DNA of 64,000 nucleotides from Pyropia yezoensis. Lineage: Eukaryota; Rhodophyta; Bangiophyceae; Bangiales; Bangiaceae. The position numbers were made by a program, and so were the translations under genes. The notes beneath the pieces are model-generated. The model made no database searches. It had not been told where the DNA came from and saw nothing but the letters and a program-made list of their open reading frames with translations. Position 1 is the stretch's first letter; every line of letters starts with the position of its first letter. This document shows positions 1-52,560 of the stretch, piece by piece. The stretch lies in contig CM020620.1 in assembly GCA_009829735.1 (NCBI GenBank), forward strand, positions 24,898,020 to 24,962,019. Reading direction: 5' to 3'.

Positions 1-3
1 GGT

Positions 4-252
4 CTCTCTGTTAGCTGGGGGGATATCCCCCCAGGTGCTGCGCTGGTTGGGTCAGCGCGTTGCCTCGGTGGCGTGCCGGACCGCCTCCAGAAAGCTCTGG
101 AGGACGTGGAGGCTGGCCGCAGCACCCTCGTCCAGCTATGCACCGAGGTAACTCGGGTGGTCGACCGTCGTGACATTGCCGACCGGTGGAGCACGGAGGT
201 ATACGCGCTTACGCGTGAGTGGCCTCCCTCGGGCAGTGGGTCTACCCACTGA
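4..252 (+). CDS. C-terminal part of the family 1 opposite-strand ORF (aORF) in R1
   Basis: An 83-codon open frame enters from the left edge and ends in TGA at 250-252. It faces pol of the same element, whose stop is at 710-712 on the other strand. The predicted protein ends in STH and is about 90% identical by eye to the C-terminus of the matching ORF in R3 (18117-18370, minus). Many differences are silent or conservative, which suggests the protein was kept under selection. The visible part is helical and polar, with Asp-Arg-Leu and Glu-Asp-Val-Glu stretches, and has no signal peptide, membrane segment or enzyme motif that I recognise. Function unknown. Confidence 0.7.
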   Translation, partial: LSVSWGDIPPGAALVGSARCLGGVPDRLQKALEDVEAGRSTLVQLCTEVTRVVDRRDIADRWSTEVYALTREWPPSGSGSTH

Positions 253-7970: not shown

Positions 7971-8307
7971 GCGAGCCGGGCATACTCGCCTCCTCGCCGT
8001 CGTCGCCGACACCTGCGGCGCTCTCCGTCCGTGTCGGAAGACGAGTTGTCTTACTCCGTCTCGGAGTCCTCGACTCCGTCAGAGTCGGAGTCGGTCCGGC
8101 GTCTGCGTCGCCAACTTGCGAGCAAGACTAAACAGAAAGGCAGCCGCGGTCGTCGCCACTTGCGCGACCGTGAGGGGCGCGGCGGTTCCGACTTGGAGCC
8201 GCCGGCCCCGCCGACCGGTGGGGAGCGTCATCGCCGTGGGTCTCGCCGCTCGCCTCCTCGTGAGGGCGAGGGCCGTGGGGTTGGAGAGTCTAGCATGCAT
8301 GCCTAGT
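7971..8307 (+). pseudogene. C-terminal piece of the family 2 opposite-strand ORF in R2, cut by R1
   Basis: The fragment enters mid-ORF at the R1 junction and ends in TAG at 8305-8307. It matches the last 112 codons of the 648-codon ORF in R7: an Arg run, Ser-Arg repeats (RRRRR, SRRSPS-type), an acidic Ser stretch (SEDELS) and a Pro-rich patch before the end. About 85-90% of residues match R7 by eye. It faces R2 pol, whose stop is about 110 bp further on. Without R1 it would be contiguous with the upstream part, now left of the window. Confidence 0.75.
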
Positions 8308-14933: not shown

Positions 14934-17665
14934 GGTTCTGCGTTGATTACCGACGCCTCAACTTGGTTCCCAAGAAAGACTCATACCCTTTACCAAGGAT
15001 GGACGAGTGCATCGATTCGCTGGGGGAGGCCACAGTGTTGACCAATATCGAGTGCAATGCCAAGTACTGGCAGATCCCAGTTGCGGAAGAGGATATCCCC
15101 AAGACGACGTTCGTCTGTCACAGTGGCGTGTACGAGTTCCTAAGGATGCCCTTCGGATTGTCCAACGCCCCCGCCACATTCCAGCGGACCATCGACATTA
15201 TACTGTCAGGAGTCAAGTGGCGTAACTTCCTGGTGTACTTGGACGACCTCATCGTCTTCTCGCGTAACATGGATGACCATGTGCAACATGTCGACGAGGT
15301 ACTCACCCTCTTGCGGAACGCCGGGGTAACCCTGCGCCTCAAGAAGTGCGCCTTCTTTCAGCAGACCGTCGAGTATTTGGGTCACCAGATCACACCAAGT
15401 AAACTGGGAGTGCTCGAAGCTAATACCCGGGCCCTCCAGGATGCGCGATACCTAACCACCCAGACACAGCTGAAAAGCTTCCTGGGGATGTGCAACGTAT
15501 ACCGACGGTTCGTCAAGGACTTCGCTCGTATAGCCAAACCGTTAACGGTTCTGACGAGCAGCGCCTTGCCAAAGGTACTCCAACCTCCCTCGCCCAGCGA
15601 GGGAGAGGCATTCGAGCTGCTCAAGCAAGCTCTGCTAGCCCCACCCGTGCTTGCGTTGCCGCATAGACGCGGGACCTTCGTCATCGACGTCGATGCCTGC
15701 GATACCCAAATTGGATGCACCCTGTTACAGGGAGGGACTATCATCGGTACCGATAATGCTATCCCGGACCTACATCCGGAAGGGTACTTCAGCCGGACAC
15801 TCAACCCGGCTGAGCGTACCTATAGTGCCACAGAGCGCGAATGCTTCGGAGTCATTTGAACAGTGCAACTGCTCCGGCCATACCTAGAAGGTTCCAGGTT
15901 CATCGTGAGGTCCGACCACGAACCTTTACGATGGCTTCTCAACCTTGGTGACAAGGATTCCGACAGCCACGGTCGGCTAGCCCGGTGGAGGCTGAAGATG
16001 GCCGAGCACGACTACCGGACCATATATAAGGCCGGCTCCACCCATCATCTCGGGGACGCGCTGTCGCGACTCGATACACCGAGCGGAGATACCCGACAGG
16101 TGGACGAGGACATCCCGGTTGTACCAGCTTGCATGGTGGGTAATGCTACCCAAGGTATGGTTGACCATACCATGGCACACCTTGCGTGCCCATTGACCCT
16201 CGCGGACTTCCGCGAGGCACAGGCCAATGACGACGACTGTAAACGCCATCGTGCCAACCTTCTGGCCGGCACGGCCGGCATCTTATCCGAGAATGAGGAC
16301 GCCCTCATATACCGGCGGGCATTCACCGATGGACGACATCAGGTCGTGGTTCTTGTGTCCTTACGGCAAGTGGTCGTGGAAGGAGAACACGAGAACCCCA
16401 CAGCCGGACACCCGGGGGGTTCGCACATGTTCGCAGCAATGCGAAGGTTCTTCTACTGGCCAGCTATGGCCGTCGACGTAATCGACCACGTGCGGGGATG
16501 CCACCCGTGTGCACGAAATCCTATGAGTCTTCATAGGCGGGCATCCGCTATGAAACTGTTCCCCCCCGATGGGCCCAACGAGCAAGTCGCTATCGACGTA
16601 CTCGGGCCGCTTCCGGTAACAGAAGAAGGGAACAGGTACATCCTGGTCATGTCGCACCGCTTTACTAAGCTGTCACGGGCAGTAGCAATCCCGAACGATA
16701 CGGCCTACACCATCATGAACGCAGTGGTTGACCACTGGATCAGTGCTTACGGAGATATGAAGCAACTCCTCTCCGATAACGGAGCAAACCTTACGTCAGC
16801 ATTCTGCACTAAGGTCCTGGGCATGTTCGGTATCGCACCCCGTCGGGCATCCGACTACCACCCGCAATCCAACGGGCAGGTGGAGCGGTTCAACCGCACC
16901 ATCGTGAAGATGCTCCAATGCTATGTGGCGGAGCACACGACGACGTGAGACAGGCTTCTGTACGTCTTGACCCTGGCATACAATGCCAGGCCCTACCGGA
17001 GTACCAGCATTGCCCCACTGGAATGGGTCATGCCGATGGGCGTCGGTAACCTGACGCTGCCACCGGGCAGATGCACTCGGTATGACATACCGAAGGGCCG
17101 ACCGGCCGAACGGATCCACTTAGCTTGGTTGGCCAAGCTATCGTGGATGATTCCAAAGCTCAAGGGTGCCCTTGACCGAACACAACTTCGATACAAGAAG
17201 ATCTTTGACGCCCGGCTACGGGTACGCAACGCAACCCTGGTACCAGGTGACTAGGTCTACATCAGACACCAGAAGTTCCGAGGGAACAAGCTTATGCAAC
17301 CGGTCAAGGGACCGTACCAGATCTTACACAGAGATGATCACTCTGTCATCCTGCACTCCGATACGGAGATACAACGCATCAACCTCAATGATGTGACACC
17401 TGCTCCGAAGCCGGAACAGCCTCAGCCGGTACCGGCTGGGTTGCTACATGAAGCTCTTACAACCCACCGGTCAGATGACCCGGTGGGACCGGATGGGATT
17501 CCATACCAAGTAGAGAGCGTGGTCGGACACACCGATCCGGACCTACCAGGACCCTGGTACGTCAAGGTGATGTGGGTCGGATACGACTCACCCACCTGGG
17601 AACAGGCGGCGAATATACCCCGCCAACTTCTCATGCCATACATGAGGCGACGACGCCTACTGTAA
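14934..17665 (+). pseudogene. pol: R3 pol, 3' part (RT to chromodomain) with three stops
   Basis: The frame starts inside RT (FCVDYRRLNLV) and is collinear with R1 pol: YLDD, RNase H, HHCC/DDE integrase, KGPYQIL, then a chromodomain-like end closing at TAA 17663-17665. Three in-frame stops (TGA 15857-15859, TGA 16946-16948, TAG 17252-17254) each replace a tryptophan present in R1 or R10 (VIWAVQ, TWDRLL, GDWVYI). All are G-to-A changes on the coding strand. At the first stop the next G is also A, consistent with clustered deamination. There are otherwise no frameshifts over 2.7 kb. Confidence 0.85.
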
Positions 17666-18116: not shown

Positions 18117-20485
18117 TCAGTGGGTAGACCCGCTGCCCGAGGGAGGCCACTCACGCGTTAACGCGTACACCTCCATGCTCCACCGGTCGGCAATCTCGCG
18201 ACGGTCAATCGCCCGAGTTACCTCGGTGCATAGCTGGACGAGGGTGCTGCGGCCAGCCTCCACGTCCTCCAGAGCAGTCTGAAGGCGGTCCAACACTCCA
18301 CCAAAGCAACGCGCGGAACCGACCAGCGCAGCACCTGGGGGGATATCCCCCCAGCTAACAGAGAGACCCTCCCGCATCTCGCGGGCAATGAGGGCGTCAA
18401 CGCCTTCATACCATAGACGGGGACCCCCGTCATGCATGCCAGGGGCGGAAGGTGACACTGGCGCAGCCAGAGGAGCCACAGGAGCCGACACGGCCACCAC
18501 CGGAGCCGGTGGCGCCTGATACGAGGCCCGGCAGGACCCCACGGAAGGGGCTCCACCGTAACCACGGCGGTACTCCGCCCGACGACGGGACACCTGACGC
18601 TTCCCACCCGCAGAGCCTCACTCTCGGGGACGACGGCCAACCGCCACCGGAATCGGGTTACCGAACCACGGGGCGAGGATCTGAAGAGGGTCATGGATAA
18701 CCATGGGAATATCCAGGTCAGCAACAGCCTCGGTGGACGCCCACTCCCGGCAATTGGGCTCACCCGGCTGAGTACGCCGGATACGCAACGAGTGACGAGG
18801 CAAGGGGGAGGACACAGCCTGCGGGTCCCGGTACGGGGGAAGGGCCAACACCCCAGCCCAGTTCACGGCATCGTGAACAGCCAGCAGGGCCTCGAACTCC
18901 CGGGCCAACCCGGTCTTGGCAGCTATCATGTCCACGCCCAGCTGCCCGATGTGCCGACGGACACCCGTCGGAAGATGAAGCAGGCGCCCCTGCCGACGGA
19001 CGGAAAGCAAAAAGGAGGAAGCCTGCCCGAGGGTAACCTCAAGGGTGAAGTCCCCTGCAACGGGTGGACCGGCCGAGAGGCCAACACACTCCCGAAGTAT
19101 CGGAGGCAGGAGCCGGTGTCAATCCGGAAAGCCGGGGCGGGTTCCCACCCCTCCTGCCACAGAGGCGGGCGCACGGCAGTGTACACCGGCGCACGACCGT
19201 TACCGGTCTGCAACGCACACGTTATGTCGGTGCGGAACGCATCCGCCATGACACCATGGTTGCGTCGCCAGCTCGACGCCGACTTCAACCCCGCCATGGG
19301 CGGGTACGGAGCCGTCAATGTCAGGTACGGGGATACCCCCGGGAAGTACTCAAACCCGGGATACCGGCCGGTATCACCCACCGTCTCCCCAAACGTCACC
19401 GGCTCCGCCGCCGCCGCGATCCCCCGAGCACTAGCCGGGTAGTCAACCTCCCGCGGCATCAAGGGGGCAATCAAGTCGCATATCCCGAAGGCGGAGTCGA
19501 GGTAGACCTCACCCCGCCCCATCCGGGTGCGCCAGAGCTGCGCATGCCGGTCGTTCGGCTGACTCAGGATCCAATGATGTTCCACCCGGACCGCGTTCGG
19601 CTGGTTGACCAGCCGCACCAACTCCCGCTCCCAACTCGGGTCCACCTTGACGCGCCGGTCGGTCTCTCCAGGCAGACACGGCTGGTGGAAGTCCACCCGC
19701 ATCCGCCCAGCGGAGTCCATTGACTCTTGCACAGTCAGGCCTCGAACCCGAGCCACCAAGTCGGACATCGACATGGCGGGTTGACCTGCCGCAGAGGCGA
19801 CGCCGCCACCCAACGGGGCAACCCGGGCAGGACCAGGAAGAATCGGGGGCGCCGGGGGGAGCCCCACCGGCAGATGGGCCGGCACCGGAGGAGCACGGGG
19901 CTGAGGAGGAAGAAGAAAGGCGGGCGCCCGCCCGGAGTAACTCCCGGAGTCTACTGCCATCGGGGTAGACACTTCCTGACCACCAAGCGTCCGCGGCACC
20001 GCGGGCAGAGCATCGCAGCCACCCGGGCCCGACGTGGGCACCACGGGGGCGGCAGGGGTAGACCCGTTACCCGCCGCCGCGGACACACCAACCGGGCGGG
20101 CACCCGCGCCTTCTTGACCCGCCGTCCCGGCGGGGGTGCAGCCACGACCATCCGACACGCCGGCGACGCCGTCTGGAGGTAGAGCCGCGCCGGCACCGGC
20201 GACAGGAGCCATCCGGGCCGCCGGAGGAGTAGGGGTAGAGGCAGCCGCTACACGCGGTTGCCCGCCACCCGACGGAGCCGTCGTGCCGCTGCACACAGAC
20301 GACAATCCGCCTGGCGCACCTTCCGGGGCCACACGAACGGTCACCCGGTCGCCTTCGTCCTCCGACGAGCTCTCCAAGAAGCACTCGGCGGCGGTGGCAG
20401 AGACGGGAACGTCGTCCACCATCACCTCCTCCTCCTCCTCAAGCAGGAGGTCGTCCTCGCCCCCGGGTAACTGGGGGTCCGACAT
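18117..20485 (-). pseudogene. R3 family 1 opposite-strand ORF (aORF), convergent with pol; one frameshift and one stop
   Basis: ATG at 20485 (MSDPQLPGGEDD), stop at 18117-18119; about 790 codons overall. The order is an acidic N-terminus with a Glu run, about 250 residues of Pro/Ala/Gly/Ser low complexity, a folded-looking middle (DFHQPCLPGETDRRVKV, WERELVRLV, PYLTLTAPYPP), then blocks YFGSV (near 19084-19107) and RRQGRLLHLP (near 18970-19000), and a helical C-terminus. These blocks recur in the same order and spacing in the family 2 ORF, so I infer homology. A frameshift lies between 19010 and 19090 and a TGA at 18618-18620. No known domain recognised; not reverse transcriptase, envelope or RNase H. 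Confidence 0.65.
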
Positions 20486-21071
20486 GGTGGAGCCGGGGTA
20501 GCAGGGGCGCCCCGTACCAAAAAGCCGCAGCCGGCTCGACCCGGTACAAGGAACGCTCGCACGGACGAGCCAGGGAAGCGCGGGCACCCGCGCTTATAAC
20601 CACACAGCTCGGCACGACCGATACGGCTGCGCGGGACGACCCGCGCCAGCCGAGCTACGAGGGCGCTCCACCCAGGCACCTGGATCGGGGCCACACCCCC
20701 CACACCGGGTAACCAAGGGGGGTCACCCCCAACCGCCCCACGCAACGCGGGCAGCCCCCGCCACCCACTCAATAGTCCCGCGAGACGGGCCCCCCCTACC
20801 ACCAGACGCCTGGTGGCGGATCGGCTTGCACCACCCCTCGGAAAGGGGGGTCGTGAACAGAAACCCGCATCGGGAATTCAACGGTCCGGAAAGCGGATCG
20901 TGTGTTTACCACACAAAGGGGGGCACCCCCCCCAGACAACCTCGAAAAGGGGTGTCTGTCGCGACAGGGCGCAAAGCCCAACCCGACTGGTAAGCGGTCA
21001 CGCGACCCACTTACATTCGGTAACCCGAATGCAACTCGACCCGAGGACGTGCCGAATCTAAGGGGGGGATA
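20486..21071 (-). promoter_or_regulatory. R3 region between the aORF start and the 3' LTR: possible antisense promoter, then polypurine tract
   Basis: For the opposite-strand ORF this is the upstream region. A TATA-like TTATAA at 20594-20599 lies about 110 nt before the ATG on that strand, a position compatible with its own promoter. Next to the LTR the plus strand has the polypurine tract AAGGGGGGGATA (20060 offset by 1 kb, i.e. 21060-21071), the expected plus-strand primer. No other coding signal was seen. Confidence 0.5.
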
Positions 21072-21434
21072 TGTAGCAATATGGTTGGCCGTATTGTGAC
21101 CCTAATATTAGGGGGGGTACTTCTAACCCTTAACTTTCAATTTTGAGAGTCTGTACTGGTCACGGTATCTATAAGTTACGTATGACCAGAGAAACTTGCA
21201 TCTTGGGGTGGAGGGTAGTTAGTAGTGTCTCCGAGGGTTTATAACGAGGGGCCGGCGGCGAATCCACCGCCGGCCATGGTAGAACAACAAACCCCTCCCA
21301 TTTGGGCTCCCATCTTGGTCCCGTGGCTTGCGCTCCAAGGATAGCAACCTTGGCCTCCCGGTTACGTTGGTGCCGATCCCCTCTGGTGAGTGTGCCCTGA
21401 GAGTGGACGTGCAGCGGATACCTATTGTGGTACA
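21072..21434 (+). repeat. 3' LTR of R3 (family 1 LTR, 363 bp)
   Basis: It starts TGTAGCAATATGG and ends GTGGTACA, collinear with the LTRs of R1 and R10. It carries the perfect palindrome GGCCGGCGG/CCGCCGGCC (21250-21258, 21267-21275) just downstream of a TATA-like TTTATAAC. Confidence 0.9.
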
Positions 21435-24501: not shown

Positions 24502-24517
24502 TCGGGGGAATAGACAC

Positions 24518-25950: not shown

Positions 25951-26871
25951 ATGCCATCCGGCCAGGCCGGACGACCGGCGAGCTTCAAGAAGGCGCCGGT
26001 ACAAAGTGAGGACAGACGGCTGTCTTCAGGGACCCGATGCTGCTAGCGAGCCACGTTAACGTGGCCGAAATATAAGCAAGCGTAGAGACGAACACACTCC
26101 TGTTGGCTAAGAGCTCTGGCTTGGAGCTCTTGCCCGAGACGGTACTCTCGGTTAACTGTGACCTCTCAAACATCTGCAGGGTGCAGTCCAACCTGCGAAC
26201 ATACAAGCGCCATGGGTTGACCATGGCCAACGGTTTCATGGAATTCCCAACAGGGGGGTCGTCCCTGCTCGTGAAGGCGAACTTTCGCCGTAAGGCAGTT
26301 ACCACTCCGAAAGAGACCCTCCTCGGAATAGCCGAGCTCTACGAGGAAGAGATCCTCACCCCTGACAGGGACGGCCAAGTGGAACCTTTGAAGTACTGGC
26401 GGTCGCCGAGACCCCCGAACGGGAGGACCCCGACAGCGGGTAGCCTAGTCGAGTCTCAGTCCCAGCGGATAATCCACCGAAGCACCTAGAGGCCTCGAAG
26501 GCTTTCGCCGAGGCTGACCTCGACCACCTGCCCCCTTCGGTACCCGAAGAAGTACGAAGAATGCTGAAGAAGCACGCTGTCATGTGGACAGGTGGTGCCT
26601 TGGGCACGATTGGGGCAACCCAACATCGTACTGACCTGGTACCAGGCGCACAACGCGCCCGGTCGCAACCGCACCGAGCGGGACGTATGCAGCGAGAGAT
26701 CGTTCATGGGCAAAAGCCCAGAATGAGTGAAGGCAGAGTGATGCGACCTTCTATGTCGGAATGGGGCGCCCCAGTCGTCATCGTACCGAAGAAGCATCAG
26801 ACTGCCCAGTTCTGCATCGATTACCGACGCCTCAACTTGGTCACGAAGAAGGACTCCTACCCTTTTCCAAG
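25951..26871 (+). pseudogene. pol: R5 pol remnant: end of protease region to first RT block
   Basis: It is collinear with R1 pol: HVNVAE-like segment, LPETVLSVNCDL, QSNLRTYKRHGLTMANG, GAPVVIVPKK and FCIDYRRLNLVTKKDSYP. There are stops and frameshifts near 26045 and 26487. The aspartic protease motif is deleted. The fragment ends in RT where the family 2 LTR starts. Confidence 0.8.
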
Positions 26872-31419: not shown

Positions 31420-31888
31420 TGTGGCAAAAACCACAAGCACACACGGCACCCAAGTTGGGGCGGTGTGCTAGGGCTGCCTCCCGTGTCGGGGGAACCGGAA
31501 GAAGTGCAAGTCGCACACACTCTGTCCCTGTTGTGGGGCAAACCCCCCACGGACAAACAAGAGGATGGTGTGTGGTCCAACAGTTTCTTGGTCGGGACGG
31601 GGACGCAGGGCCAAGCCCCGCTGTCCCTCCCCTTATCCCCCCAGGGTCCACTCAGAATCTCGCCACTCAGAATCTCCCACCCCAGCACCTGCCCACCGGG
31701 CCACACGAAAATTCAAGACGATAAATGCAGAAAACCCTCAAATCCAAGTTGGATTTACTACTAAGCTAACTATCCCAAACTTAGGGAATATGGACCCAAA
31801 TGCAGGGGGAGGAACGGATCAGGCTAGTGGCCTGCCGTTCCTTGCATGGCACGTGTTGCCCCCCTACCTGGGGGTCAATACTGCCACA
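31420..31888 (-). repeat. 3' LTR of R7
   Basis: Family 2 LTR, TGTGGCA...TGCCACA, preceded by the CCATG target copy. Confidence 0.93.
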
Positions 31889-32228
31889 CTCCCCTCTCCT
31901 CAGTTCCGACCGACTCGGTCGGCCCTGTGAGGGGGTGCGTAAACGCACGTCTCGGCGTTGGGGGCGCGACTTGCTGTCCCCCCCCTTGAGTACGTAACGC
32001 GGATGTGGAGGCGGTCACGTTGACCGCCCCTCTCCTCAAGCTTGCCCACTCGGCAGCTTGCTCTCCTCGGTTCACACTTCACCATCACCACCACCTCCCC
32101 TTCACCTTCCACGGGGCCGCCCCACGCTGGGGAGGCCACCCGTCTACCCACGATCCGAGTCCCCCTCAACTCGAGGCGGGTCTCGTGCCGCGATAGCCAG
32201 AGCGTCTCTTCCCAACTTGGGGAGAGCC
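31889..32228 (+). promoter_or_regulatory. R7 polypurine tract and leader of the opposite-strand ORF
   Basis: On the element's sense strand GAGGAGAGGGGAG (31901-31889) touches the LTR and is the polypurine tract; R9 has the same sequence at its 3' LTR. The rest is the upstream region of the opposite-strand ORF. No clear TATA box was found. The ATG context is AGAGCCATGG, good for eukaryotic initiation. Confidence 0.6.
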
Positions 32229-34172
32229 ATGGCGACCCCGGGAGTGGAGACGGACTCTCTAGATGAGCGTATGGAGGACACCACCTACAGTGCAGCACCC
32301 GCCGGGACTTCCGGCGGGGGCTCCGCGATCGCTCCGGGGGATGGGACTCCCGCGTCACCCGGCTTTGGGTTGACGGCGGGGTCTCCCCCGGAGGCGGGAC
32401 AAGTTGTCCCGCGTGAGGCCTTGGGGCGGTGGTTTTACCCCGCTTGGCCTCTCTATGAGGAGGGGTTGACTGTTCTTCGCTGTGGCCGACTTGGCGCAGC
32501 GATGGGCCGGGTATGGGACCGCCTACGGGAGAAGTATCCCCGTAGGGTCGGGTTCCCTGCCGGCTTCAGGACGGACCAGTTTGCCTTCCTGGACGATGAG
32601 GAGGTTGAGGACGTTCAGCGGGCCAAGGCCATGGTGGACCGCGGGGGAACTATCCCGGGTCCCGGCGACTTGCCGACCTTCACGTGGGACGCTGTGGCAA
32701 CTCGCCCGCCGTACCTCCACGAGGCCGATCCGCACACTCATCACTTTGATGTGCGGACGGAGAAAGACTCTCGGCGAGGTCCCTACTTGGTGACGTCGGC
32801 TCAACTTGAGTTTCCTCAACAGTCTGCTGCCAGTAAGGAGCAGTACTATCCGAAGAAGCCCGAGTGGTGGCCTCAAGTTGAGGTCCCCTACGGGTTCCCG
32901 GCGTTGTTGCCACGGTTGCTTGACCACTTCGGCTCCGTCATGTTGACGGCTGCCCCTGATCACCTGGTGTGGGCCATGTTGGCCACCCAGTGGCTCCTCG
33001 AGGTCATGTCGACCTGGGTGTCCTGTGTTCAGCGGCGGGGGATGCTCTGGCATCTCCCCCTCCGGCTCATCCAAGGTTTGGAACAGCTCACCCCTCAGCT
33101 AGTTGCTGAGGGGTGCTCATCAGGACAACTCACTCTACTTGAGGAGATGCTCCGGCTGCATAAGTTTATCGAGTGGGAGAGCACTGAGCACAAGTTGCGC
33201 CGCCCCACTCGTGGGCCCAAGGACGATGGCGCACTTCGCCAGTTCGTGTGGGTCGCTCGTGAACTTCACGACGGCCGTGTGGTCCTATGAGAGGGGTTGG
33301 GCATCGGGGACTACCCGTATGCCCCGGGAGTGGATCGCCACACTGCGCCACCCCCGGACAAGCCCATAGTTATGGCCGTGCCGTCCTATGATGACCATAT
33401 GACTCAACCCACTGCGGGGGCCCCAAGTCGGGGTCGCAGTTACACCCGGGTACCGCCACCTCGGCGGGCCCCTCCGCTTCCTCCTGTTCCTTTACAACCT
33501 CACGGGAACATCCCGATCAGCGTGGCCGTAGAGTCTTCCACCCCGGTGTCCCCCAACTTGGGGGCCACCCTCCTGACGGTATACCCCAAGTTGGTGTTGC
33601 CGCTCACGCCTCTAACCTCAGAGATGATGATCACCACGTTGGTGCGCACCATTTCCTGGTTGGCCGCGTCGACCGCAACCCTACAGAGTTCCGAGACTCC
33701 TCAACTTGAGGAGCGCGTTCGTACTGCAGTGGCGACCGCGAGTTGCGAGTCGTTGGCGGAGTTTATGACAGCCGAGTTGGCTCGCATTGGGGCTATTATG
33801 CCCCAGCCAGCCCCACTTGGGCGTGGCAAACGTCGCGCGAGCCGGGCATACTCGCCTCCTCGCCGTCGTCGCCGACACTCGCGGCGCTCTCCTTCCGTAT
33901 CGGAAGACGAGTTGTCTTACTCCGTTTCGGAGTCCTCTACCCCGTCGGAGACGGAGTCTGTCCAGCGTCCGCGTCGCAAACTTGCGCGCAAGACCAGGCA
34001 GAAGAGTGGCCACGGTCGGCGCCACTTGCGCGACCGTGAGGGGCGCGACGGTTCCGACTTGGAGCCGCCGCCCCCTCCAACGAGTGGAGACCGTTATCGG
34101 CGTGGGTCTCGCCGCTCGCCTCCTCGTGAGGGCGAGGGCCGTGGAGGGGGAGAGTCTAGCATGCGTGCCTAG
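32229..34172 (+). CDS. R7 family 2 opposite-strand ORF (aORF), 648 codons with one internal TGA
   Basis: ATG at 32229 (MATPGVETDS), TAG at 34170-34172. In order: a short Gly/Pro-rich N-terminus (1-65); a folded-looking domain of about 280 residues rich in Trp, Phe and Tyr (WFYPAWPLYEEG, FTWDAVATRPPYL, YPKKPEWWPQVEVPYGFPAL, DHFGSV at 232-237, QRRGMLWHLP at 268-277); a Pro-rich linker; a helical segment (LEERVRTAVATASCESL); and an Arg/Ser-rich tail from about 532 resembling RS domains of RNA-binding proteins. A TGA at codon 354 (33288-33290) is Lys in R9. R9 has exactly the same length and about 80% identity. No database family recognised. A nuclear or RNA-binding role is only an inference from the RS tail. 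Confidence 0.75.
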
Positions 34173-34283
34173 TTGGCAGCTGCCTTTGTTGTGAGAGTGT
34201 GAGGGTTAAGGCTGTAGTTGAAAGCCTCTCTGCGTACCACTTCGACTTGAAGCACTCTCTTGGCACTGTTACTCGGCCTTCGG

Positions 34284-37200
34284 TCACGTTAAGGGTGGGC
34301 TGTTAGGGTCTATCCCATTCCGGGCACAGTATGCCCGGACCTTCTCAGCGGGAAGGTCCTCCACATACTCCCACGTATCATCCTTGGCTTTGTAGCCAAA
34401 CCAACTCACCCTCAAAATGAGGCGGTCAGTGTCTTCATCCCATCCGTGGTCGATGAACTTATCGAACACGTACTCCTGTGGGCCCTGTTTGGCCGCAGGC
34501 AGTGAGGGGAGGCGCCAAGATTCCAACGCACGCGCCCAAGCTGGGTCGCCTGCAGGCGGTGGTGCAACTTTGACCACGTTCTGTCCGTTCACTGTGCGGA
34601 CCCCATCGTCACTTTCGATGGTGAAGCGCCGCCCATCAGTACGAAGGACCTGGTACGGTCCCTTTGTCTGGAATACCAGCTTACCCCCAGTTGGGGTGTG
34701 CGAGTGTACCAGCACCCAGTCACCCTGCTCGGGGACGTGCTTAGCATTGCGCACCTTTTTGTCAAAGGTCCGCTTGTAGCGCTTTTGTGCTTTGCCTATC
34801 TCAGCCCTGACATTTGGGATGAGATTTTCAAGCCTAGCAGCGAACTCCGCCTTACTCTCAGTAGGAATAGGCGTACTGCCACCATCCTCCCTAGTTGGGA
34901 GCGACCGCCGCACGGCAATAGACCGCACACGATGGGGGGTCACAAAAGCGAGGGGTACTTCCCCTGTAGATGAGTGAACCTGCGAATTGTAGGCAGTAGT
35001 AAGGATAGAAATGTATTGGTCCCACCTCTTCACGTGCTCACTCACATAGTGGCGCAGCTGCCTAACAATAGTTTTGTTGAAGCGCTCCACCTGCCCATTA
35101 GTTTGTGGGTGGTAGGGGGTGGCATAGTTTGCCTTAACCCCCAACATATCCAGCACTCCCTGAAACAGTACAGACGCAAATTGCGGTCCATTGTCCGATA
35201 GTGTACTATCTGAGATGCCATACGCGGCAACCCAGTGATCTAGGAAGGCTGACACGACCGACATGGCCGTGATCTCTGCCAGTGGGATCGCTCGCGTAAG
35301 TTTCGTGAAGCGGTCACAGATGACCAGGAGGTACTGGTTGCCCTCCTCGGTCACTGGCAGTGGCCCAAGGATGTCCATCGCCAACGCGGCGAAGGGCTCC
35401 TTGGCCGGGAACAATAACATAGCCGTACTAGGCCGCCGTTCCATCAGACGGTTCTGTGCACAACTAGTGCAGGCAGCCACGCAACTGTAGATGTCCACCA
35501 CCATGGACGGCCAGTAGTACCTGGTCCTCAGGGTCTGATATAGTTTACTAGACCCCAGGTGTCCGCCCGTGGGAGCGTTGTGCTCCTTCTCAAGGATACT
35601 GTCCTTGAGGGATGCGGGGACGACAAGTTGTTCGGTCCCCTGGAATACCCCCCTCCTCATGAGGAGGCCATCGTCTCCCAGAAAGAAACGCGTCTCTACC
35701 ACTGTATCCAGTATATCCCTCTGCGACTTGCAGAAGGAATCCTCGGCCTGGGCCTTCACCACCCCGTCCAGGGACAGGGGCAAGTACTTCTTGTTCCCTG
35801 GCGCCTCGTGGTTCAACGCCTGACCCGAGCGCGTGACTGCCCCCACGATGGGGATGTCCTCATCGACTGGGTTAGTGTCCAGCCCCTCGGTAGGTACCCG
35901 AGAGAGGCCGTCGGCAAGGGCATGTTGCCTGCCAGGTCGGTACTCAATATCAAAGTTGAAGGGTGCCAGTCGCACCCTCCACCGGTTGAGACGAGTGTTC
36001 GTACAGTCCGTCTTAAAGATGAACTGCAACGCGCGGTGGTCACAGCGGATGAGGAACTTCTCACCCCCCAGGTAGTGACGAAGTGACGTCACCGCCCACA
36101 CCACTGCGAGTCCTTCCAACTCGGTGACTCCGTAGTTCTTCTCGGCCGAGTTCAGCCCCTTACTAAAGTATCCCACCGGCAAGTACTCCTTGTCCGGCTG
36201 CTGCTGAAGCAACACACAACCAAGTTGGTCGTAGCTAGCGTCCACATCCAGGGTGTAGTGGCCTCCCAACCTGGGAATAGCCAAGATGGGGGGCTTCAGC
36301 AGAAGCTCCCGAAGAGTCTCAAAGGATTCCTGCTCCACCCGACTTGGGGGAGGCAGGTTCTTCGGTAGCGTTGAGCTCACTAGCTCATTCAACGGCTTTG
36401 CCACCTTGGCGAAGCCTTTGGTGAAACGTCGGTACACGTTACACATCCCGAGGAAGCTCCTCATCTGGGTCTGGGTCCGGGGGTACTGAGCCTTACGAAT
36501 GGCCCTCAAGTTCTTCTCGTTAACACTGAGACGCCCCGGACGGACAACATGTCCCAAGTACTCCACCTCTTGAGTAAAGAGGTGGCACTTACTCGCCTTC
36601 AGTGACACACCGGCGTCAGCAAGTAGCTTGAACACCTGGCCAAGATGGCCAATGTGTTCCTCCGGACTTCGGGAGAACACAATGATATCGTCTAGGTACA
36701 CAAGACAAATCTGCCACCGTACTCCGGCCAGAATCATGTCCATAGCGCGCGGGAAAGTTGCCGGCGCGTTACACAGACCAAACGGTAGGCGCTTGCACTG
36801 GTAGGTACCACAGTGACAGGTAAAGGTAGTTTTATGCCTGTCCTCCGGGGCAATGGGAATTTGCCAGTACCCCGCGTTACAGTCCAGGGTAGAGAACACG
36901 TTTGCCTCCCCCAGAGAGTCCAGACAGTCATCCATCCTAGGTAGGGGATAACTTTCCTTCACCATGCTCTCGTTGAGCTTACGGTAGTCGATACAAAACC
37001 GGGAGGTCCCATCAACTTTGGGGACGATAACCACCGGACTCGCCCACTCGGCGTTGCTGGCCTCGATCACATCGAGGGCCTCCATGCGAGCAACTTGCTC
37101 CTTAACGAGGGCCCTTGCACGGGGCCCTCCCCTATACGGTTGTTGGCGTATAGGGGGTGCACCGGGCTTCAACTCGATCCGGTGTTGGGTAGCTCTCATG

Positions 37201-38267
37201 AGTCCCAATTGACCATCCCACAACTTGTGATATTGGTCCAAGAGGCGTTCAACTTGAACCCTCAACCTGCGGGGGACACCCTCCATGTTCACATGGGGTC
37301 GAGGAGAGGCGGCCGACTTGGCTGGATGCTTCTCCTTTCCGGACTTCGGGTCGCTACTTGCGCCCGCGTTGAGGGTGACCGCTACTACCGGTCCCTCGTG
37401 TAGGTCGATATAGCCGAACTTGGCTCCCGACTTGAAGTACTTGGGCGTCGGGCTCAGGTTCATCACCTGGATCCTCCACGGGACTCCGGCTTTGGAGTCC
37501 ATCGTGCCAAGGGCAACATGCACTTGGTGCTTGCGAGCAAGACGGGGGTTAGGGTGCACCAACCCGTTCCCCGTAAAATCAGTTACAACATCAACGTGCG
37601 CCACCGAGTTGGGGGGCAACGTGACTTTGCGGGCTAAACGCAGGGTAGCAGTAAACCCTTCCCTCACCGAACAAACAGGCTTCGACTGTGAGACTGTCAC
37701 AGGAGCCACAGACTTTCCCTTACCAAGGATGGGGATAGTCTCCCCATTCATCAACTTGACCCAGTACTCAGGGCCACAAATCAAAGGCACTTGTGTAACA
37801 ACATAAGGGGTGCCCAGAAGCAGGGGTACCGATATATTCTCAACTACGCCATAGGTCACGTCGACCTCATGGGTCCCCAACCTAGTTGGTAGGGTCACGG
37901 CACCAACGATGGGAAGTACCCCACCATTGATGTCAATCATATGGTCAGCTTTGGACCTCCAGCGTTGGAGCTTCACCTCCTTTGGTACTAGCGACTTGCG
38001 TATCAAGGAGGCTCCTGACCCGGTATCAAGTACGATACGGGTACAGCATGCACGGCCGGGGGCAAATTGCACCCGTCCAGCCACCTGGAAGTTCTCACCC
38101 GTCAGCACCGCGATGACCCGACGTGGGTTTACGTTCTTGGGGAGTCCTACCCGAGGTGGGCGGACTCCCTTAGGTCGCCGCAGTATCCGGCACGGTTGGT
38201 TCGTCCTCCTGGCCCACTTGGCCGAGGCTGCCGTTGTGAGCTTCGGACGACCAGCTCCAACGGTCAT
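34284..38267 (-). CDS. pol: R7 pol polyprotein, intact, 1327 aa
   Basis: A single open frame from ATG 38267, overlapping the gag stop (ATGA), to TGA at 34284. Domains in order: basic N-terminus; aspartic protease (LDTGSGASLI, DTG at residue 81); RT (FCIDYRKLNE, LPFGLCNAPATF, VYLDD); RNase H (LDVDASYDQLGC, TELEGLAVVWAV, CDHRALQFIF); integrase zinc finger (H-X-H then CTSCAQ), core DDE (MDILGPLPV, LSDNGPQF, HPQTNGQVERF); GPY/F motif (KGPYQVLRTDG); and a C-terminal chromodomain (LRVSWFGYKAKDDTWEYVEDL). The chromodomain places it among chromoviruses and would steer integration to modified chromatin. All visible catalytic residues are present. Confidence 0.93.
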   Translation of the reverse strand: MTVGAGRPKLTTAASAKWARRTNQPCRILRRPKGVRPPRVGLPKNVNPRRVIAVLTGENFQVAGRVQFAPGRACCTRIVLDTGSGASLIRKSLVPKEVKLQRWRSKADHMIDINGGVLPIVGAVTLPTRLGTHEVDVTYGVVENISVPLLLGTPYVVTQVPLICGPEYWVKLMNGETIPILGKGKSVAPVTVSQSKPVCSVREGFTATLRLARKVTLPPNSVAHVDVVTDFTGNGLVHPNPRLARKHQVHVALGTMDSKAGVPWRIQVMNLSPTPKYFKSGAKFGYIDLHEGPVVAVTLNAGASSDPKSGKEKHPAKSAASPRPHVNMEGVPRRLRVQVERLLDQYHKLWDGQLGLMRATQHRIELKPGAPPIRQQPYRGGPRARALVKEQVARMEALDVIEASNAEWASPVVIVPKVDGTSRFCIDYRKLNESMVKESYPLPRMDDCLDSLGEANVFSTLDCNAGYWQIPIAPEDRHKTTFTCHCGTYQCKRLPFGLCNAPATFPRAMDMILAGVRWQICLVYLDDIIVFSRSPEEHIGHLGQVFKLLADAGVSLKASKCHLFTQEVEYLGHVVRPGRLSVNEKNLRAIRKAQYPRTQTQMRSFLGMCNVYRRFTKGFAKVAKPLNELVSSTLPKNLPPPSRVEQESFETLRELLLKPPILAIPRLGGHYTLDVDASYDQLGCVLLQQQPDKEYLPVGYFSKGLNSAEKNYGVTELEGLAVVWAVTSLRHYLGGEKFLIRCDHRALQFIFKTDCTNTRLNRWRVRLAPFNFDIEYRPGRQHALADGLSRVPTEGLDTNPVDEDIPIVGAVTRSGQALNHEAPGNKKYLPLSLDGVVKAQAEDSFCKSQRDILDTVVETRFFLGDDGLLMRRGVFQGTEQLVVPASLKDSILEKEHNAPTGGHLGSSKLYQTLRTRYYWPSMVVDIYSCVAACTSCAQNRLMERRPSTAMLLFPAKEPFAALAMDILGPLPVTEEGNQYLLVICDRFTKLTRAIPLAEITAMSVVSAFLDHWVAAYGISDSTLSDNGPQFASVLFQGVLDMLGVKANYATPYHPQTNGQVERFNKTIVRQLRHYVSEHVKRWDQYISILTTAYNSQVHSSTGEVPLAFVTPHRVRSIAVRRSLPTREDGGSTPIPTESKAEFAARLENLIPNVRAEIGKAQKRYKRTFDKKVRNAKHVPEQGDWVLVHSHTPTGGKLVFQTKGPYQVLRTDGRRFTIESDDGVRTVNGQNVVKVAPPPAGDPAWARALESWRLPSLPAAKQGPQEYVFDKFIDHGWDEDTDRLILRVSWFGYKAKDDTWEYVEDLPAEKVRAYCARNGIDPNSPPLT

Positions 38268-39667
38268 TCGTTTCCCACCGACTTGGCGTCCGAATCTGAG
38301 GGCGGGGAGGAAGACGAGGAGTCCGAGGACGACGTGTCCGCGCCCTTCGCCGAGGGTGTGGCGACTGCCACCACCGGTCGAGACCCACCCTCGCGGCGTG
38401 AACGTACTTCGTTCGTAGCCGACTTCTTACTCGCATTCCTAACAAGTTGTTGGATGCGTTTACTCAACTTGGGGCAATCATATGCCCAGTGACCATCGGA
38501 GTTGCAGTTCCAACACCGATGGTCCGTTCCGGGAGGGGTCTTCCCAACTGGGGAAGACGAAGGGATACCCTGGGAAGTTCCCACGGCAGCTACCACCCTC
38601 TCCTTGCGGATTCGGCGTGCCTCTCTCAACTCTCTGGCCTGGCGCGCCTCCTGACGTTCCTTGGCCAACTCGGCCTGACGCTCTTGGCGTTGTTCCTCCG
38701 GCAACTTGCGGTAGGCCTCGCCTCTGCGATAGGCGAACCTGGCCAACTCGGCCAGGGTCGCCCGGGCAGTGTTATGCTCCCGGGTCTCCGTCCGGACTGA
38801 CCAATGGAGTCCCTCCACAAACCGACTCTTCACCACAGCTTGTGGATGAAGGAACCCACAAAGATTGTTGAGCTTACGAACTCGCTCCGCAAAGGACAAC
38901 TCGTCCTCCGCCTCTTCCTGATGGGCTTGCGTAAACTCCTCGACTTGAGAAGCCAACGCTGCCTCATCAACCATGGCTCTCAACAACCAGTTGACGAGCT
39001 CCAAATAGGACGTCACCTCCCCAGCGCCTCCACTTGAGGAGCTGGGCATGACGGACATAAGTTCTGTCCGTAGGTCGCCCTTCGTAAACTCCTGTAGCAT
39101 GTAGAAAGCCATGCCTTCACTTATGGCATTGTCGTCACAGGCTTTTGTGAAACGACGTAAGAACTCAAAGACACGGAGGGGGGGAGTTCCATCCCACTCC
39201 GCTTTGTGCCCAAAAGAGTGAAGTGCATTCTTCTTGGCACGGCCCATGGCTCGGGCCTGGTCAGGACCATACGCCACCGACTTGTTGTGGAGGGCGTAGG
39301 TCTCACAGTCAAAGATCCTCTCGTAGACCGGGTTGGCTACCTGGATCTTGGGCGGCACCTCACGTTGAGGGAACAGCCGCTGCGAACCCGCGGGGACAGT
39401 CCTCACCCCTTGGGACGTTCCCGTTCAGTACACCACGCGGTGGCCAGACTTCGGCCCACCCACATCAGAAGTGTCACCCGAGTGAACTCCCGACTGAGTC
39501 GGGGTGGCCTGTTGCCAGCCCGCACTTCCAGTCATGCTGGCTTGAGGGACCTCTAGTCCCTCTGCGACCCCAGGTAAACCCACCTGTGTCTCACCAGTAT
39601 TCAAAGGCACTGAAGTACGTGCGTCACCCGTGTACTCCCCGGACGACGGGGGATCCGAACTAGCCAT
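38264..39667 (-). pseudogene. gag: R7 gag with a 181-codon in-frame deletion and one TGA
   Basis: ATG at 39667 (MASSDPPSS), end at the GNE-TGA overlapping pol. Compared with R2 gag (649 codons) it has 468: an in-frame deletion joins VPAGS to QRLFPQ and removes low-complexity sequence before the capsid-like region. The capsid part, the coiled basic segment and the zinc knuckle (CWNCNSDGHWAYDC) are all retained. One TGA at 39425-39427 replaces the Ser codon found in R2. Because the frame is kept, the deletion may be a tolerated variant while the stop is what disables it. It could also have been mobilised by Gag supplied from another copy. Confidence 0.85.
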
Positions 39668-39766
39668 GTTGGCTGACGATCCGTATGACACAGTCCAAGT
39701 CCACCGTTCCTCTGAGACAGAGGGCCCCCTACACCCGGGTGCACCCGGAGGTAAAGTTTACCTCTG

Positions 39767-39784
39767 TCCCCTGCTGCTCCACCA
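39767..39784 (-). promoter_or_regulatory. Primer-binding site of R7
   Basis: The same 18-mer as in R1, R2, R8 and R10, two bases from the LTR. Sense strand TGGTGGAGCAG onward. Confidence 0.82.
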
Positions 39785-39786
39785 AA

Positions 39787-40255
39787 TGTGGCAAAAACCA
39801 CAAGCACACACGGCACCCAAGTTGGGGCGGTGTGCTAGGGCTGCCTCCCGTGTCGGGGGAACCGGAAGAAGTGCAAGTCGCACACACTCTGTCCCTGTTG
39901 TGGGGCAAACCCCCCACTGACAAACAAGAGGATGGTGTGTGGTCCAACAGTTTCTTGGTCGGGACGGGGACGCAGGGCCAAGCCCCGCTGTCCCTCCCCT
40001 TATCCCCCCAGGGTCCACTCAGAATCTCGCCACTCAGAATCTCCCACCCCAGCACCTGCCCACCGGGCCACACGAAAATTCAAGACGATAAATGCCGAAA
40101 ACCCTCAAATCCAAGTTGGATTTACTACTAAGCTAACTATCCCAAACTTAGGGAATATGGACCCAAATGCAGGGGGAGGAACGGATCAGGCTAGTGGCCT
40201 GCCGCCCCTTGCATGGCACGTGTTGCCCCCCTACCTGGGGGTCAATACTGCCACA
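39787..40255 (-). repeat. 5' LTR of R7
   Basis: 469 bp, with 4 differences from 31420-31888 by eye, followed by the CCATG target copy. Confidence 0.93.
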
Positions 40256-48204: not shown

Positions 48205-48235
<31 letters not shown>

Positions 48236-48514
48236 AGGCCGCCCCCTGATGCGGATGGTAGCGCGGGTGGTAGCCACGTCCGTCGTCGTGGCGGCCACCA
48301 AGCCGCTGCGGCGGCGGCGGACGGGAAGGGCGACGGCCGGCGGGCGGGCCCAAGCTTCTTGGCCCCCCTGCAGGCCGGTAGGTCGGCGACCAGCCGTCGC
48401 GGGTGCGCTGCCGCTGCGGCGGTGGTGCTCCCTCTTTGCTCTGGTGCACACCTTGCACTTACATGCCGATAGGCGTAGGCGCCGCTGGGCGACTCTTCCT
48501 TGGCTGCTGTCCAT
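46631..48514 (-). CDS. Myb/SANT-like DNA-binding partner of the Harbinger transposase, ORF starting in retroelement sequence
   Basis: 627-codon frame. Residues about 148-225 resemble the Myb/SANT-like (trihelix) fold of PIF/Harbinger accessory proteins (RGWTSEELEVLCKGFLAL, GTDQKSAEFWAAVSEAYDE, CVARTVSAVKKVKDKAKKGV). An acidic Ser/Asp stretch and a Gly/Ala linker follow. Then comes a NAM-associated-like helical segment (RPMGTEAAKRQNAEELII, KASTAALEAIVNASKERS), and a Pro-rich basic C-terminus. In such transposons this protein and the transposase together bind the ends. The only in-frame ATG before the domain (48514) lies in family 3 RNase H sequence: residues 1-31 read as RNase H in a shifted frame. 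The native start is therefore probably lost or on an upstream exon. Confidence 0.75.
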
Positions 48515-50677
48515 GCAAAGCAGCCACCTTCAGCTGGCGTCGGTCCGTCTGGATAAGGAACTCTTGTCGTTCCAGGTAGGGGCGTAACAAGAAGCAGGCC
48601 CAGACGACCACCAAGCACTCGCGTTCCGTTGTGGAATAGTTCTTCTCGACTGGCGTCAGGACGCGACTGTAGTAGCATATCGGGAGGAAGCGCCCATCAG
48701 GTTGTTGCTGGAGTAGAGAGCACCCCGCTTGGACGCCACGGGCATCAGTCTCCAGCACAAGCTGGCCCTCCCGCTTGGGTAACGCCAGTACTGGAGTCGT
48801 GGTCAGGCGCTTCTTGAGCTCCTCGAAGGCAGTGGTCAGCTTCTCGTCGAACACCGGGAGTTGTGCGGGGAGCTTCTTGCTGGTGAGCTTGGTCAATCGC
48901 CGGGCAATCAGGGCATATTCCCGTACGAACCGGCGGTAGACGTTACACATACACAGAAAGCTCTTGAGTTTCGTCTAGGTCTTAGGTTGCCGGGCTTGCC
49001 GGAGAGCCTTGATATTCTTTTCGTTTACCCAGAGCTCCCCCGGACTCAGCACGTGCCCCAGGTACTCCACTTCCGTCTCGAACAGGTGGCACTTCTCGGC
49101 CTTCAGGGTAACTTCAGCCTTGGACAGAAGAGCCAGGATCTCATGAAAGTGCTCTAGGTGTTCCGCTGGGGTCTTGGAGAAAACGATTATATCGTCCAGG
49201 TGGACTAAACATGTTCTCCACCTTAGCCCCGACAGGATGATGTCAATGGCTCTCTGGAAGGTAGCCGGAGCATTGGTGAGACCAAAAGGAAGACGCTTGC
49301 ACCGGAATAGCCCCATATGGCCCGTGAAGGTGGTTTTGTCCTTGTCCTAGTCAGCCAGGGGGATCTGCCAGTAACCGGCATTACAATCCAGCGTCGAGAA
49401 GAGGGTGGCATCACCAAGGAAGTCGATGCAATTGTCCATCCGGTGTATCGGGTATACATCCTTGACTGTCATCTCGTTCAGGCGTCTGATATCAACGCAG
49501 AAACGGACGTGGCCGCCAGGTTTCGGGACGACTACCACCGGAACGGCCCACTCGCCATCAGACGTCTCGATAACATCCATCTTGAGCATCTTGTTGACCT
49601 GCTTCTCAATTCTCATCCCGGCGATGTGGTCCAGCCCGATAAGGTTGCAGGTACACTGGCTTGGCATCCGGCTTGAGTTGAATCCGGTGTATGGTGGCGT
49701 CCATCTTGCCCAGCTCTCCAGATCACAGGTGCCGATATTCCTGGAGAAGCTTCTCAAGTGCCTCCTTCAGGTCGGGAGGGACATTTTCTTGGTTGACATT
49801 CGGCATCCTGGGTGGTGCTTGATCGGGTTTCGGGGTAACGCCGCCGGCCTGCTCTTGTCCCGGAGGTACGTCTAGGGCGGTTAGGTTGGATGCCAGTTCT
49901 TGTTGCAGGTTCAAGACGTCCTCCTTGCTCATGGAACGGGCAGACCCTCGATAAGGTTCTGCGGTTCCAACTCGAGTGCCCTTGGCGAGAGTTATCGGCT
50001 TCCGCCTTACGTTGACGATGAGCACCGAGAATGGGGTGTGCCTCTCCACCTTCTTGTGATGTCCGTGGGCCAAGTATAACCGATTTTTCGCCAGAAATTC
50101 CTTACATCCGTAGATCAGGCATTGACCCGTAGTCCGGGTGGTTACTTGAACCTCGGTCTCCGAACGAGGAGCGAGGAGTACCGGTTTGAAGAGATTCAAG
50201 GCAGAGGGTGGGATGCGTCCCTTCTTGTTCTTGACTACACGAACCTTGGCGTCTAGATGCTCCAGCACCGGCGACACAAATCCATAATTGAACTGCACCT
50301 TTCCTTCTCCGGGCAGGATGCTCTTGACACGTTGCTTCTGAAAGTCCCAGCCTAGAATGAGGGGGACTGAGAGGGTCTTGACTACTAGAAAGGGAAGAAG
50401 CATTGGTTCATTGTTGAGATAGATGACGACAGGAAGGCGGCCAAGCGGTCGTTGAGTTTGACCCGAAGCGTCTACAATCCGGGCCTTCGTAGGAGCTCTC
50501 CAGGCATGTTGGCGCCAGCCCGGAGGTAGCAGGTTCTCAGTGATGACGCTTGGTGCGGCTCCCGTGTCGACCACGGGAGTAACAGCTTGGGGGAAGCTCT
50601 CCCTCACACGCATACGAGCAGTGATCTTGAGGTTTTCCTTACGCAGGACGAGCAAGGTCCCCTTGAGCAAACATGGT
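48436..50677 (-). pseudogene. pol: R8 pol fragment (protease, RT, RNase H start)
   Basis: Protease VVDTGAAPSVI; RT with FCVDIRRLNEM, LPFGLTNAPATF and catalytic VHLDD (His for the usual Tyr); RNase H (LETDARGVQAGCSLL, TERECLVVVWA, QTDRRQLK) followed by a +1 shift into sequence recognisable as RNase H (SSQGRVAQRRLRLS). TAG stops occur near 48975 and 49347 and a break near 49720. No in-frame ATG follows the gag stop in this copy. Sequence is clearly divergent from families 1 and 2 but the layout is the same. Confidence 0.82.
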
Positions 50678-50798
50678 TTCCAGGCGGCTACCAGTTCAGC
50701 AGGTAACTGCCGTCACTTCTCCCGGCACGCAAGGGGAGAACGGGTAGAAGTACCTTGCCGTCGGAGGTTCGGGAAGACACTTGGGGAGAGCGCCTGCC

Positions 50799-52560
50799 CT
50801 ACTCGTTTCCCGGGTCCGAGGATTCCTTGGAGGTCTCGGTCTCCAGGTCAAAGTCCGTAGGAGCTTCCTTGGCCAGAGCCTCCGTGATGCTCTGCAAAGT
50901 TGCCACCCGGATTGCGTGGACCTCTGCCTTGTCCGTCTTGGAGAGTGCTCGCCGGTCAGCCCAGTTGACATCCTTCAAAAGCACCAGTCCTTGACGCTTG
51001 AGCTTCTCCTGGAGGTCCTTGGGAATGGTGGGGCACTGGTAGGACATGTGGTCCTCCTTCTGGCACAGCCAACAAGACCCGGAACCGCTGGTTCTTGACC
51101 AGTTTGGAGGCGACCAAGGAAGGTTGCTCCTTAAAGACAAAGCCGCCCCACTTGTCTCCTGACACCACGGGTGAGGTCTCGCCGACTGCCAGTACCGGTG
51201 CAGGGCTATCAACTCCCTTATATTTGTCGGGTCCGGGACGAACTGGCGACAACGTCTTGGGGGTTGATACCATGGGAGCTTGAAGGGGCTTGGCTTGCCG
51301 GTACTTGCCCTGGGTGCAGGCCATCAGCTGCTGGAAGGTATGGTCTTGGTGTTACTGGTTGTAGTTCTCAGCATCCTCTTGAAGATATTCAGGAAGCCCT
51401 TCCGAGAAGATCATTTTGAGCCTGTGCTCAGGGTACACGTTGCCACAAGCCTCGCAAATCTCCCGGACACGGCGGTTGAAGGCCTCTGGAGTCTCTTGTC
51501 GCTCCATGGTTGCCCGGTTCAACTTTCCCACTGCCTTTCGCAGGGAGTCCGCGTCAGCGTAGTTGGACAGGAGCCAGTTGACTGCTTCCAGATAGCTCCC
51601 AACGGTACGCCCGACGATGTCTCCGGCTGAGTCTGGTAGAACCTGTGCGAACCGCTGTTCCGCTTCTCCGGTCATCAAGTTAACCAGGAGGTAGAGGGCC
51701 CTGCCCTCGGACACATCGTTGTCGTTGCATGCCTTGACAAACCGACGCAGGAAGGCAAAGATAAGCGCCGGCTTCTTCCCGGAAAACATAGGATGTCCCC
51801 CGAAACTCGGCTGCATGCGCCGGTTAGGGCATGCCATCTTCTTGGCCATCTTCCGGGTGCAACCTTGGTCTTGGTTCTCCAGCCGGTAGTTACCCCAATA
51901 CGTGACCTTTTTCAGGGAGGCATCCCCCACTTGGTGAGCAGGGAAGTCAAACTCAACTTGCCTGCGCCGGGTGGGACCAGGGGATGAGTCCCAGTCCTAT
52001 CCCTCCTCAGAGCTGGAGTAACTGGTCTCGCTGGTGCTAGAGCGACGACGACGACGCCGCCGCCTCCGGCTGCTCCGGTTACCGGTCTTGGAGCTCCCCG
52101 CCCCATAGGATGCCAGGGGAGGAAAGGCTTGGCCGGTCCCAGGAGTCTAGGTCTCAGAAGGACCCGTAGAACCAGTCATGGCGGTGCCTCTGGCACTGCT
52201 AGCGCCCACGGGAAGCGGTGTATGCACCCAGGTGCCACGTGTAGGTCCAGGAGTAAACACACCAGGGGCTATCCCTGGAAGTTCAGGAGTGGAACCGACA
52301 GAAGGTAGACGTCTGCTTCGGGTGGACTCAAACGCCGTTGACCCCGGGGTGGCTCCCACAGGAGGGACAGCCGGAGGAACGGGAGCAGGAGGTACTTGGC
52401 CGCCTGTAGACTCCAGTCCGCTACCGGGTGTCACGCCCAGGTCTGCTTCGCCCGTACCGAGAACGCCGGATTGGACACCGTTGCCCGCGGTGACCAGGGA
52501 TGCGTCAAGAGACGCGGGGTCTACCCCTTCGGGCACCGTCGTGCCAGAAAGGGTAGCCAT
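50799..52560 (-). pseudogene. gag: R8 gag (family 3)
   Basis: ATG at 52560 (MATLSGTTVPEG). Pro/Gly/Ser/Thr-rich N-terminus, a basic run followed by Ser/Thr (SRRRRRRRRSSTSET), and a capsid-like part (VTYWGNYRLENQ, FLRRFVKACNDNDV, VNWLLSNYADADSLRKAVGK, IFSEGLPEYLQ). The zinc knuckle is CWLCQKEDHMSYQC (CX2CX4HX4C). It ends GNE-TAG, with the same nucleotides before the stop as in families 1 and 2. In-frame stops are at about 52147 and 51999, and frame breaks near 51352 and 51110. Non-functional. Confidence 0.82.

Follow-up and report, generated by a model that had tools for sequence, protein, structure and literature searches.

A probably inherited antisense gene behind pol in three diverged Ty3/gypsy retrotransposon families of a red alga

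Some gypsy retrotransposons carry a gene that faces against the rest of the element. Antisense genes placed after pol have been described in plant gypsy elements and in a fungal one, where their functions are given as unknown (PMC7264820). The protein of gene23 in the maize element Grande is reported to be nuclear and expressed from its own promoter (PMC7264820). The antisense TRP28 domain of Retand is predicted to bind DNA, and PMC11963269 calls its function unknown and suggests a regulatory role. Here we describe an antisense open reading frame behind pol (hereafter aORF) in three Ty3/gypsy families, F1, F2 and F3, of the red alga Pyropia yezoensis. The analysis set out from the window, that is, the whole 64-kb stretch of DNA under study, which abounds in nested LTR retrotransposons, and was extended to the genome (107.5 Mb in 11 contigs), where further aORF places were found via the aORF itself.

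The F1 aORF that gave rise to the study occupies positions 18117..20485 of the window on the minus strand, in an F1 copy designated R3, with its ATG at 20485 and its end at 18117, just where the original prediction had placed an opposite-strand frame. This copy has decayed, with a single in-frame stop and, near 18977-19064, a single change of frame, and its 91% match to an intact 789-aa relative (L010) is split over two frames. The pol of R3, from reverse transcriptase (RT) to integrase and a divergent chromodomain region, runs on the plus strand at 14934..17665 with an in-frame stop of its own, and some 450 nt lie between the end of pol (near 17665) and the end of the aORF. A polypurine tract, AAGGGGGGGA, shortly 5' of TGTAGC, and the 3' LTR follow on the plus strand at 21060..21434; the LTR matches window 7608-7970, and the F1 aORF is thus placed between pol and the 3' LTR. 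The frame had also been said to recur, by its end, in a second F1 copy, R1, and R1 does hold the C-terminal end alone (window 1..246, plus strand, 87% to residues 707-788), the remainder falling outside the window; window 1-2779 of R1 pairs with 18368-15596 of R3. The pol of R1 is interrupted by a run of 422 Ns at window 2780-3201. Older F1-like fragments, 75-83% identical to other F1 copies, are found at window 24517-27546 and are adjoined by an F2-type LTR (81-90%).

Family F2 is represented in the window by a full-length copy on the minus strand (31420..40255), with LTRs at 31420-31889 and 39787-40255, gag and pol on the minus strand, an LTR pair 99.1% identical and the 5-bp repeat CCATG on both flanks. 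The aORF it houses reads on the plus strand at 32229..34172, comprises 647 codons with one internal stop (33288-33290) and is 97.5% identical to an intact relative (L052); the part matching F1 in hhalign, residues 95-319, corresponds to 32511..33185 (plus strand). A second F2 aORF of 647 codons, again with one internal stop (56510-56512), lies on the minus strand at 54770..56713, and a C-terminal remnant (86%, residues 537-647) survives in a truncated F2 copy at 7971..8303 on the plus strand. The full copy sits amid two minus-strand frames, at window 30512-31651 and 40265-42514, the upstream frame giving a weak AAA_16 match below the cut-off (E 0.0017); one host gene may have been split by the insertion.

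The third family, F3, appears in the window as a protease and RT fragment (48419..51548, minus strand) that lacks an aORF, the aORF being present in genome copies. In one of these, L055, a 910-aa antisense frame spanning a 500-N gap comes after an open pol of 1371 aa, and seven more copies carry an aORF of 705 aa counted from ATG. Two F3 pol copies, at G000:C1:8645028 and 8652578 (L055), lie 7550 bases apart with an overlap 99.9% identical, as if they were tandem copies with a common LTR; intervals of 6.2-6.8 kb are seen repeatedly between chromodomain places of the genome. Beside the F3 fragment of the window, a 632-aa frame at 46631-48529 (minus strand) gives a weak NAM-associated match below the cut-off (E 0.019), and perhaps encodes a transposon-associated protein.

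Across the genome the aORF is both abundant and frequently open. Queried with the first 555-aa piece of the F1 aORF, with the F2 aORF and with a 333-aa stretch of that of F3, the search yielded, among the best candidates scored, at least 78 F1, 75 F2 and 121 F3 places. By hand count among the matches listed, the aligned stretch was free of stops at 53 of 78 F1, 58 of 75 F2 and 119 of 121 F3 places. The commonest open frame, again among the matches listed, measured 825 aa in F1 (36 of 78; 789 aa from ATG) and 724 aa in F2 (46 of 75; 647 aa from ATG). At 60 of 62 loci the aORF lay on the strand opposite to pol, tail-to-tail with it (28/30 in F1, 24/24 in F2 and 8/8 in F3); the remaining two F1 loci, fetched like the others via the aORF, gave no pol match. 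The distance between the aligned ends of pol and aORF was equally regular, being 457-458 nt in 18 of 28 F1 loci (range 302-557), 118 nt in 21 of 24 F2 loci (up to 196) and 152 nt in all eight F3 loci. A position between pol and the 3' LTR was found for R3 and for the full F2 copy. Anatomically, the aORF belongs with the accessory genes of positional class aORF-3R (PMC7264820). In retroviruses this place is taken by env, and an Env-like, movement or virion protein might be expected there; the antisense orientation speaks against this, as does the hydropathy of the proteins, which lack any transmembrane-like or signal-like stretch (hydropathy over 19 residues peaks at 1.55, and N-terminal windows reach no more than 0.81), and we regard such a protein as very unlikely.

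Whether the frames of the three families are related was examined in proteins rather than in the damaged window copies, the F1 copy of the window alone matching F2 weakly (tblastn E 0.009). For intact proteins of the same genome, 10 from F1 and 8 from F2, blastp returned a best E of 4.3e-9 (24% identity over 245 aa), the match spanning about 240 residues. The profile-profile comparison, named beforehand as decisive, was significant both with full alignments that included database relatives (hhalign E 9.4e-6, probability 83%) and with cores alone (E 9.1e-7, probability 91%), against 0.04 for a control in which F2 was compared with reversed F1. The Smith-Waterman score of 110 was reached by none of 1000 full shuffles (maximum 61) and none of 1000 local ones (maximum 58), and the BLAST score stood at 47.0 bits against a shuffle top of 30.8, a control in which scores came back for no more than 500 and 475 of 1000 shuffles. 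The collinear blocks from which kinship had first been proposed (YFGSV and HFGSV, RRQGRLLHLP and QRRGMLWHLP, and the ends VNW and IEW) occur in the same order in the intact relatives, which also share the low-complexity N-terminus noted earlier in the window copies.

F2 and F3 are also significantly related, with blastp E values of 6e-8 to 4e-7 over 166 aa, an hhalign E of 8.7e-6 for the cores, and a Smith-Waterman score of 94 that none of 1000 shuffles of either type attained (maxima 60 and 74). In BLAST a single local shuffle, of the 890 for which a score came back, exceeded the true value (42.0 against 40.8 bits), which did not recur in Smith-Waterman. Direct similarity between F1 and F3 was not significant, 26 and 32 of 1000 shuffles reaching the score and hhalign giving E 0.012, but a combined F1 and F2 profile matched F3 at E 1.2e-5 (reversed control 0.099), so that F3 joins F1 via F2. 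As judged from these comparisons of sequence, the F1 aORF is shown to be homologous to the F2 aORF, and the F2 aORF to that of F3. The C-terminal parts are not clearly alike, their between-family scores being reached by 13 (F1-F2), 36 (F1-F3) and 174 (F2-F3) of 1000 shuffles, and a shared C-terminal domain was accordingly dropped.

The GC content around the F1 aORF is 63-66%. Together with long frames on the opposite strand (545 aa, at several F1 loci), this invites the view that the aORF is a chance frame in GC-rich DNA that encodes no protein, its similarity between families being compositional. That view is hardly credible when alignment scores stand so far above the shuffled and reversed controls, when the antisense frame shows a third-position excess and, for the cores of F2 and F1, a dN/dS of 0.05-0.26, and when similar proteins exist in Pyropia vietnamensis. 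Variable sites at codon positions 1, 2 and 3 numbered 133, 129 and 234 in F1, 25, 23 and 121 in F2, and 7, 4 and 36 in F3. By the Nei-Gojobori method with pairs summed (10 F1, 8 F2 and 7 F3 copies), dN/dS was 0.35 in F1 (core 0.26), 0.115 in F2 (core 0.05) and 0.094 in F3, values biased somewhat low by the choice of copies with open frames. Intact copies of the aORF are shown to be under purifying selection. One comparison, of the diverged F3 copy L056 with L058 (end-anchored and ungapped), gave no third-position excess (24, 26 and 30; pS 0.049, pN 0.036), and was left out of the evidence because it includes a stretch in another frame. Coding on the sense strand was also considered and set aside: at the F1 locus L012 each third position of the antisense frame coincides with a first position in the long frame of the sense strand, and an excess of changes there would not fit sense coding.

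Relatives beyond the genome were sought among the 8000 best word-sharing candidates scored. Five F1-type proteins (P0004-P0008, 43-55% identity, annotated as hypothetical) came from Pyropia vietnamensis, a member of the Bangiales, and P0001 was the only F2-type relative found outside the genome itself, with 81% identity to the F2 copy of the window and 98% to an intact F2 core. A scan of viral contigs gave 34 pattern matches, none of them a relative of the aORF.

The strength of selection also bears on how the locus might act. The antisense transcript could itself regulate the element through double-stranded RNA, a role proposed for antisense ORFs in PMC7264820, in which case a trans-acting protein would not be the point. 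A function of the RNA would not preserve an amino-acid sequence, and a dN/dS well below 1, down to the value in the F2 core, therefore argues against dsRNA as the sole role; we consider that reading improbable, and a dsRNA effect may act in addition to a protein.

A gene shared by three families may be old, or it may have travelled. Chromodomains were located in the genome with Pfam at no fewer than 150 places, all above the curated cut-off, and four of these were read (Fa-Fd, L064-L067). Pol identity was 87% between Fa and Fb, 81% between Fc and Fd, and 58-60% between the pairs, so that these are four copies in two groups and not four deep families; within each pair a common stretch some 0.3-0.45 kb past the end of pol was taken as the LTR. 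In at least 2 kb downstream of each of the four pol genes there was no aORF match at E 0.01 (best 0.019, to F3 residues 19-45). Over 538 shared columns of RNase H-integrase, F1-F3 were mutually 39-48% identical and only 24-27% identical to Fa-Fd, and an unrooted tree separated the two sets with support of 1.0, F2 and F3 grouping at 0.89. Hence each of the three families seen of lineage A (F1-F3) carries the aORF, and none of the four copies read, from two groups, of lineage B (Fa-Fd) does.

That the families grouped by pol carry the aORF, and that the copies read of lineage B do not, agrees with descent from a shared ancestor and with a gene that defines its lineage. Separate acquisition by each family, or movement between families by recombination, would draw on the missing direct similarity between F1 and F3 and on rankings that differ, F2 and F3 being closest by pol, F1 and F2 matching best by aORF. 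Against it stand the identical position, orientation and tail-to-tail layout in F1, F2 and F3, and the divergence of the aORF core. Gag and pol of F1 and F2 had been called well diverged, and Gag is 23% identical over 220 aa, with pol at 39-56% by piece; the aORF core, at 23-24% (F1-F2 and F2-F3), has diverged about as far as Gag, as expected if the two diverged together. Independent gain or transfer is on this evidence unlikely. The proposal that the aORF predates the split of F1 and F2 is upheld by significant homology, by the third family and by the grouping of F1-F3 in pol, and it is highly probable, judging from three families, that the ancestor common to F1, F2 and F3 already possessed the aORF, which then passed down together with gag-pol.

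The further suggestion, that this is a defining gene of a chromovirus lineage, fared unevenly: the contrast between lineages A and B favours a defining gene, but the name chromovirus is only partly justified. In the right place, Pfam Chromo (PF00385) scored 11.9 bits in F1 (E 0.22; window 713-2779), 14.0 in F2 (E 0.049; window 34284-38426) and 20.4 in F3 (E 4.8e-4; L055), all below the cut-off of 25.1 bits, against 55.7 for Fa (L064) and 52.4 for Fb (L065) in the same test. By these profile scores, the chromodomain of the aORF-bearing lineage is divergent, and that of Fa and Fb, in the lineage without aORF, canonical.

The proteins themselves match none of the known domain families searched. 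The three full aORF proteins gave no Pfam match at E up to 10, and a PDB profile search gave no convincing relative; a single Pfam match among 11 members (DUF6214, E 0.014) and a single PDB profile match (MHC class I, E 0.012) were both taken as chance. Their tails are rich in Pro, Ala, Gly and Ser with basic clusters, above all in F2, and their cores are nearly neutral (K+R 35, 35 and 31 against D+E 31, 37 and 33), little net charge that leaves nucleic-acid binding by the core unsupported here. A second capsid-like protein, derived from Gag and serving structure or assembly, might be imagined given that Gag and aORF both appear to be fast-evolving element proteins. F1 and F2 Gag, compared with four aORF cores, showed no similarity beyond that of 200 shuffles each, and such a descent seems quite unlikely.

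As a whole, the explanation that we somewhat favour is an inherited accessory gene that lies after pol, ahead of the 3' LTR, in antisense orientation, and whose product would be a nuclear regulator. An antisense transcript would start near or in the 3' LTR, cover the aORF and be translated; the product would be a soluble protein of the nucleus, its core conserved and its tail partly basic and rich in Pro, Ala, Gly and Ser, which may act on the DNA, RNA or chromatin of its own element and thereby regulate its expression or integration. Translation and a soluble nuclear product, taken jointly, we rate a little short of an even chance, and the nuclear regulatory role is argued from analogy with Grande and Retand (PMC7264820, PMC11963269). 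A more specific and rather doubtful version would make the protein a retroelement-borne chromatin factor for target choice or anti-silencing, with a fold not yet described; it is suggested by the company of a degenerate chromodomain (11.9-20.4 bits) with the aORF and of a canonical one (52-56 bits, in two copies) with its absence.

What matters beyond this one locus is that a protein lacking the plant domain already described, though placed and oriented alike, is under selection and common to three diverged red-algal families. Such recurrence suggests that some gypsy elements have repeatedly needed a protein expressed on its own. With many open copies, and with another lineage of this genome in which the copies read lack the aORF, the question can be tested within one organism.

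How, then, does the red-algal gene compare with what has been described? PyRE10G, reported by Peddigari et al. in 2008 and cited in PMC2806351, is said to be an LTR retrotransposon of Porphyra yezoensis; it too is red-algal, and is copia-like by its title whereas the elements here are Ty3/gypsy. No report of an antisense ORF in red-algal LTR elements was found in titles and abstract beginnings among the matches listed from the open-licence literature. Grande gene23 and the antisense ORF of rice RIRE2 are alike to the aORF in position and orientation and, as far as copies fetched via the aORF show, in conservation across copies, but belong to another host group, the likeness drawn here being one of description (PMC7264820). 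Retand TRP28 (Transposase_28, PF04195) belongs to non-chromovirus elements of flowering plants (PMC11963269), whereas the aORFs here lack PF04195 even at E 10. The gene brtn of Boty, in Botrytis cinerea, is likewise a supplementary gene read antisense to its gypsy element, here in a host other than a plant; it is fungal, and is likened to the aORF by description (PMC7264820, PMC8365987). By analogy, the aORF would work like the antisense ORFs of Grande and Retand, yet would not be a member of the Retand protein family. The arrangement is of a known kind, and the protein family, the host group and the lineage that carry it appear, within the searches made, to be new.
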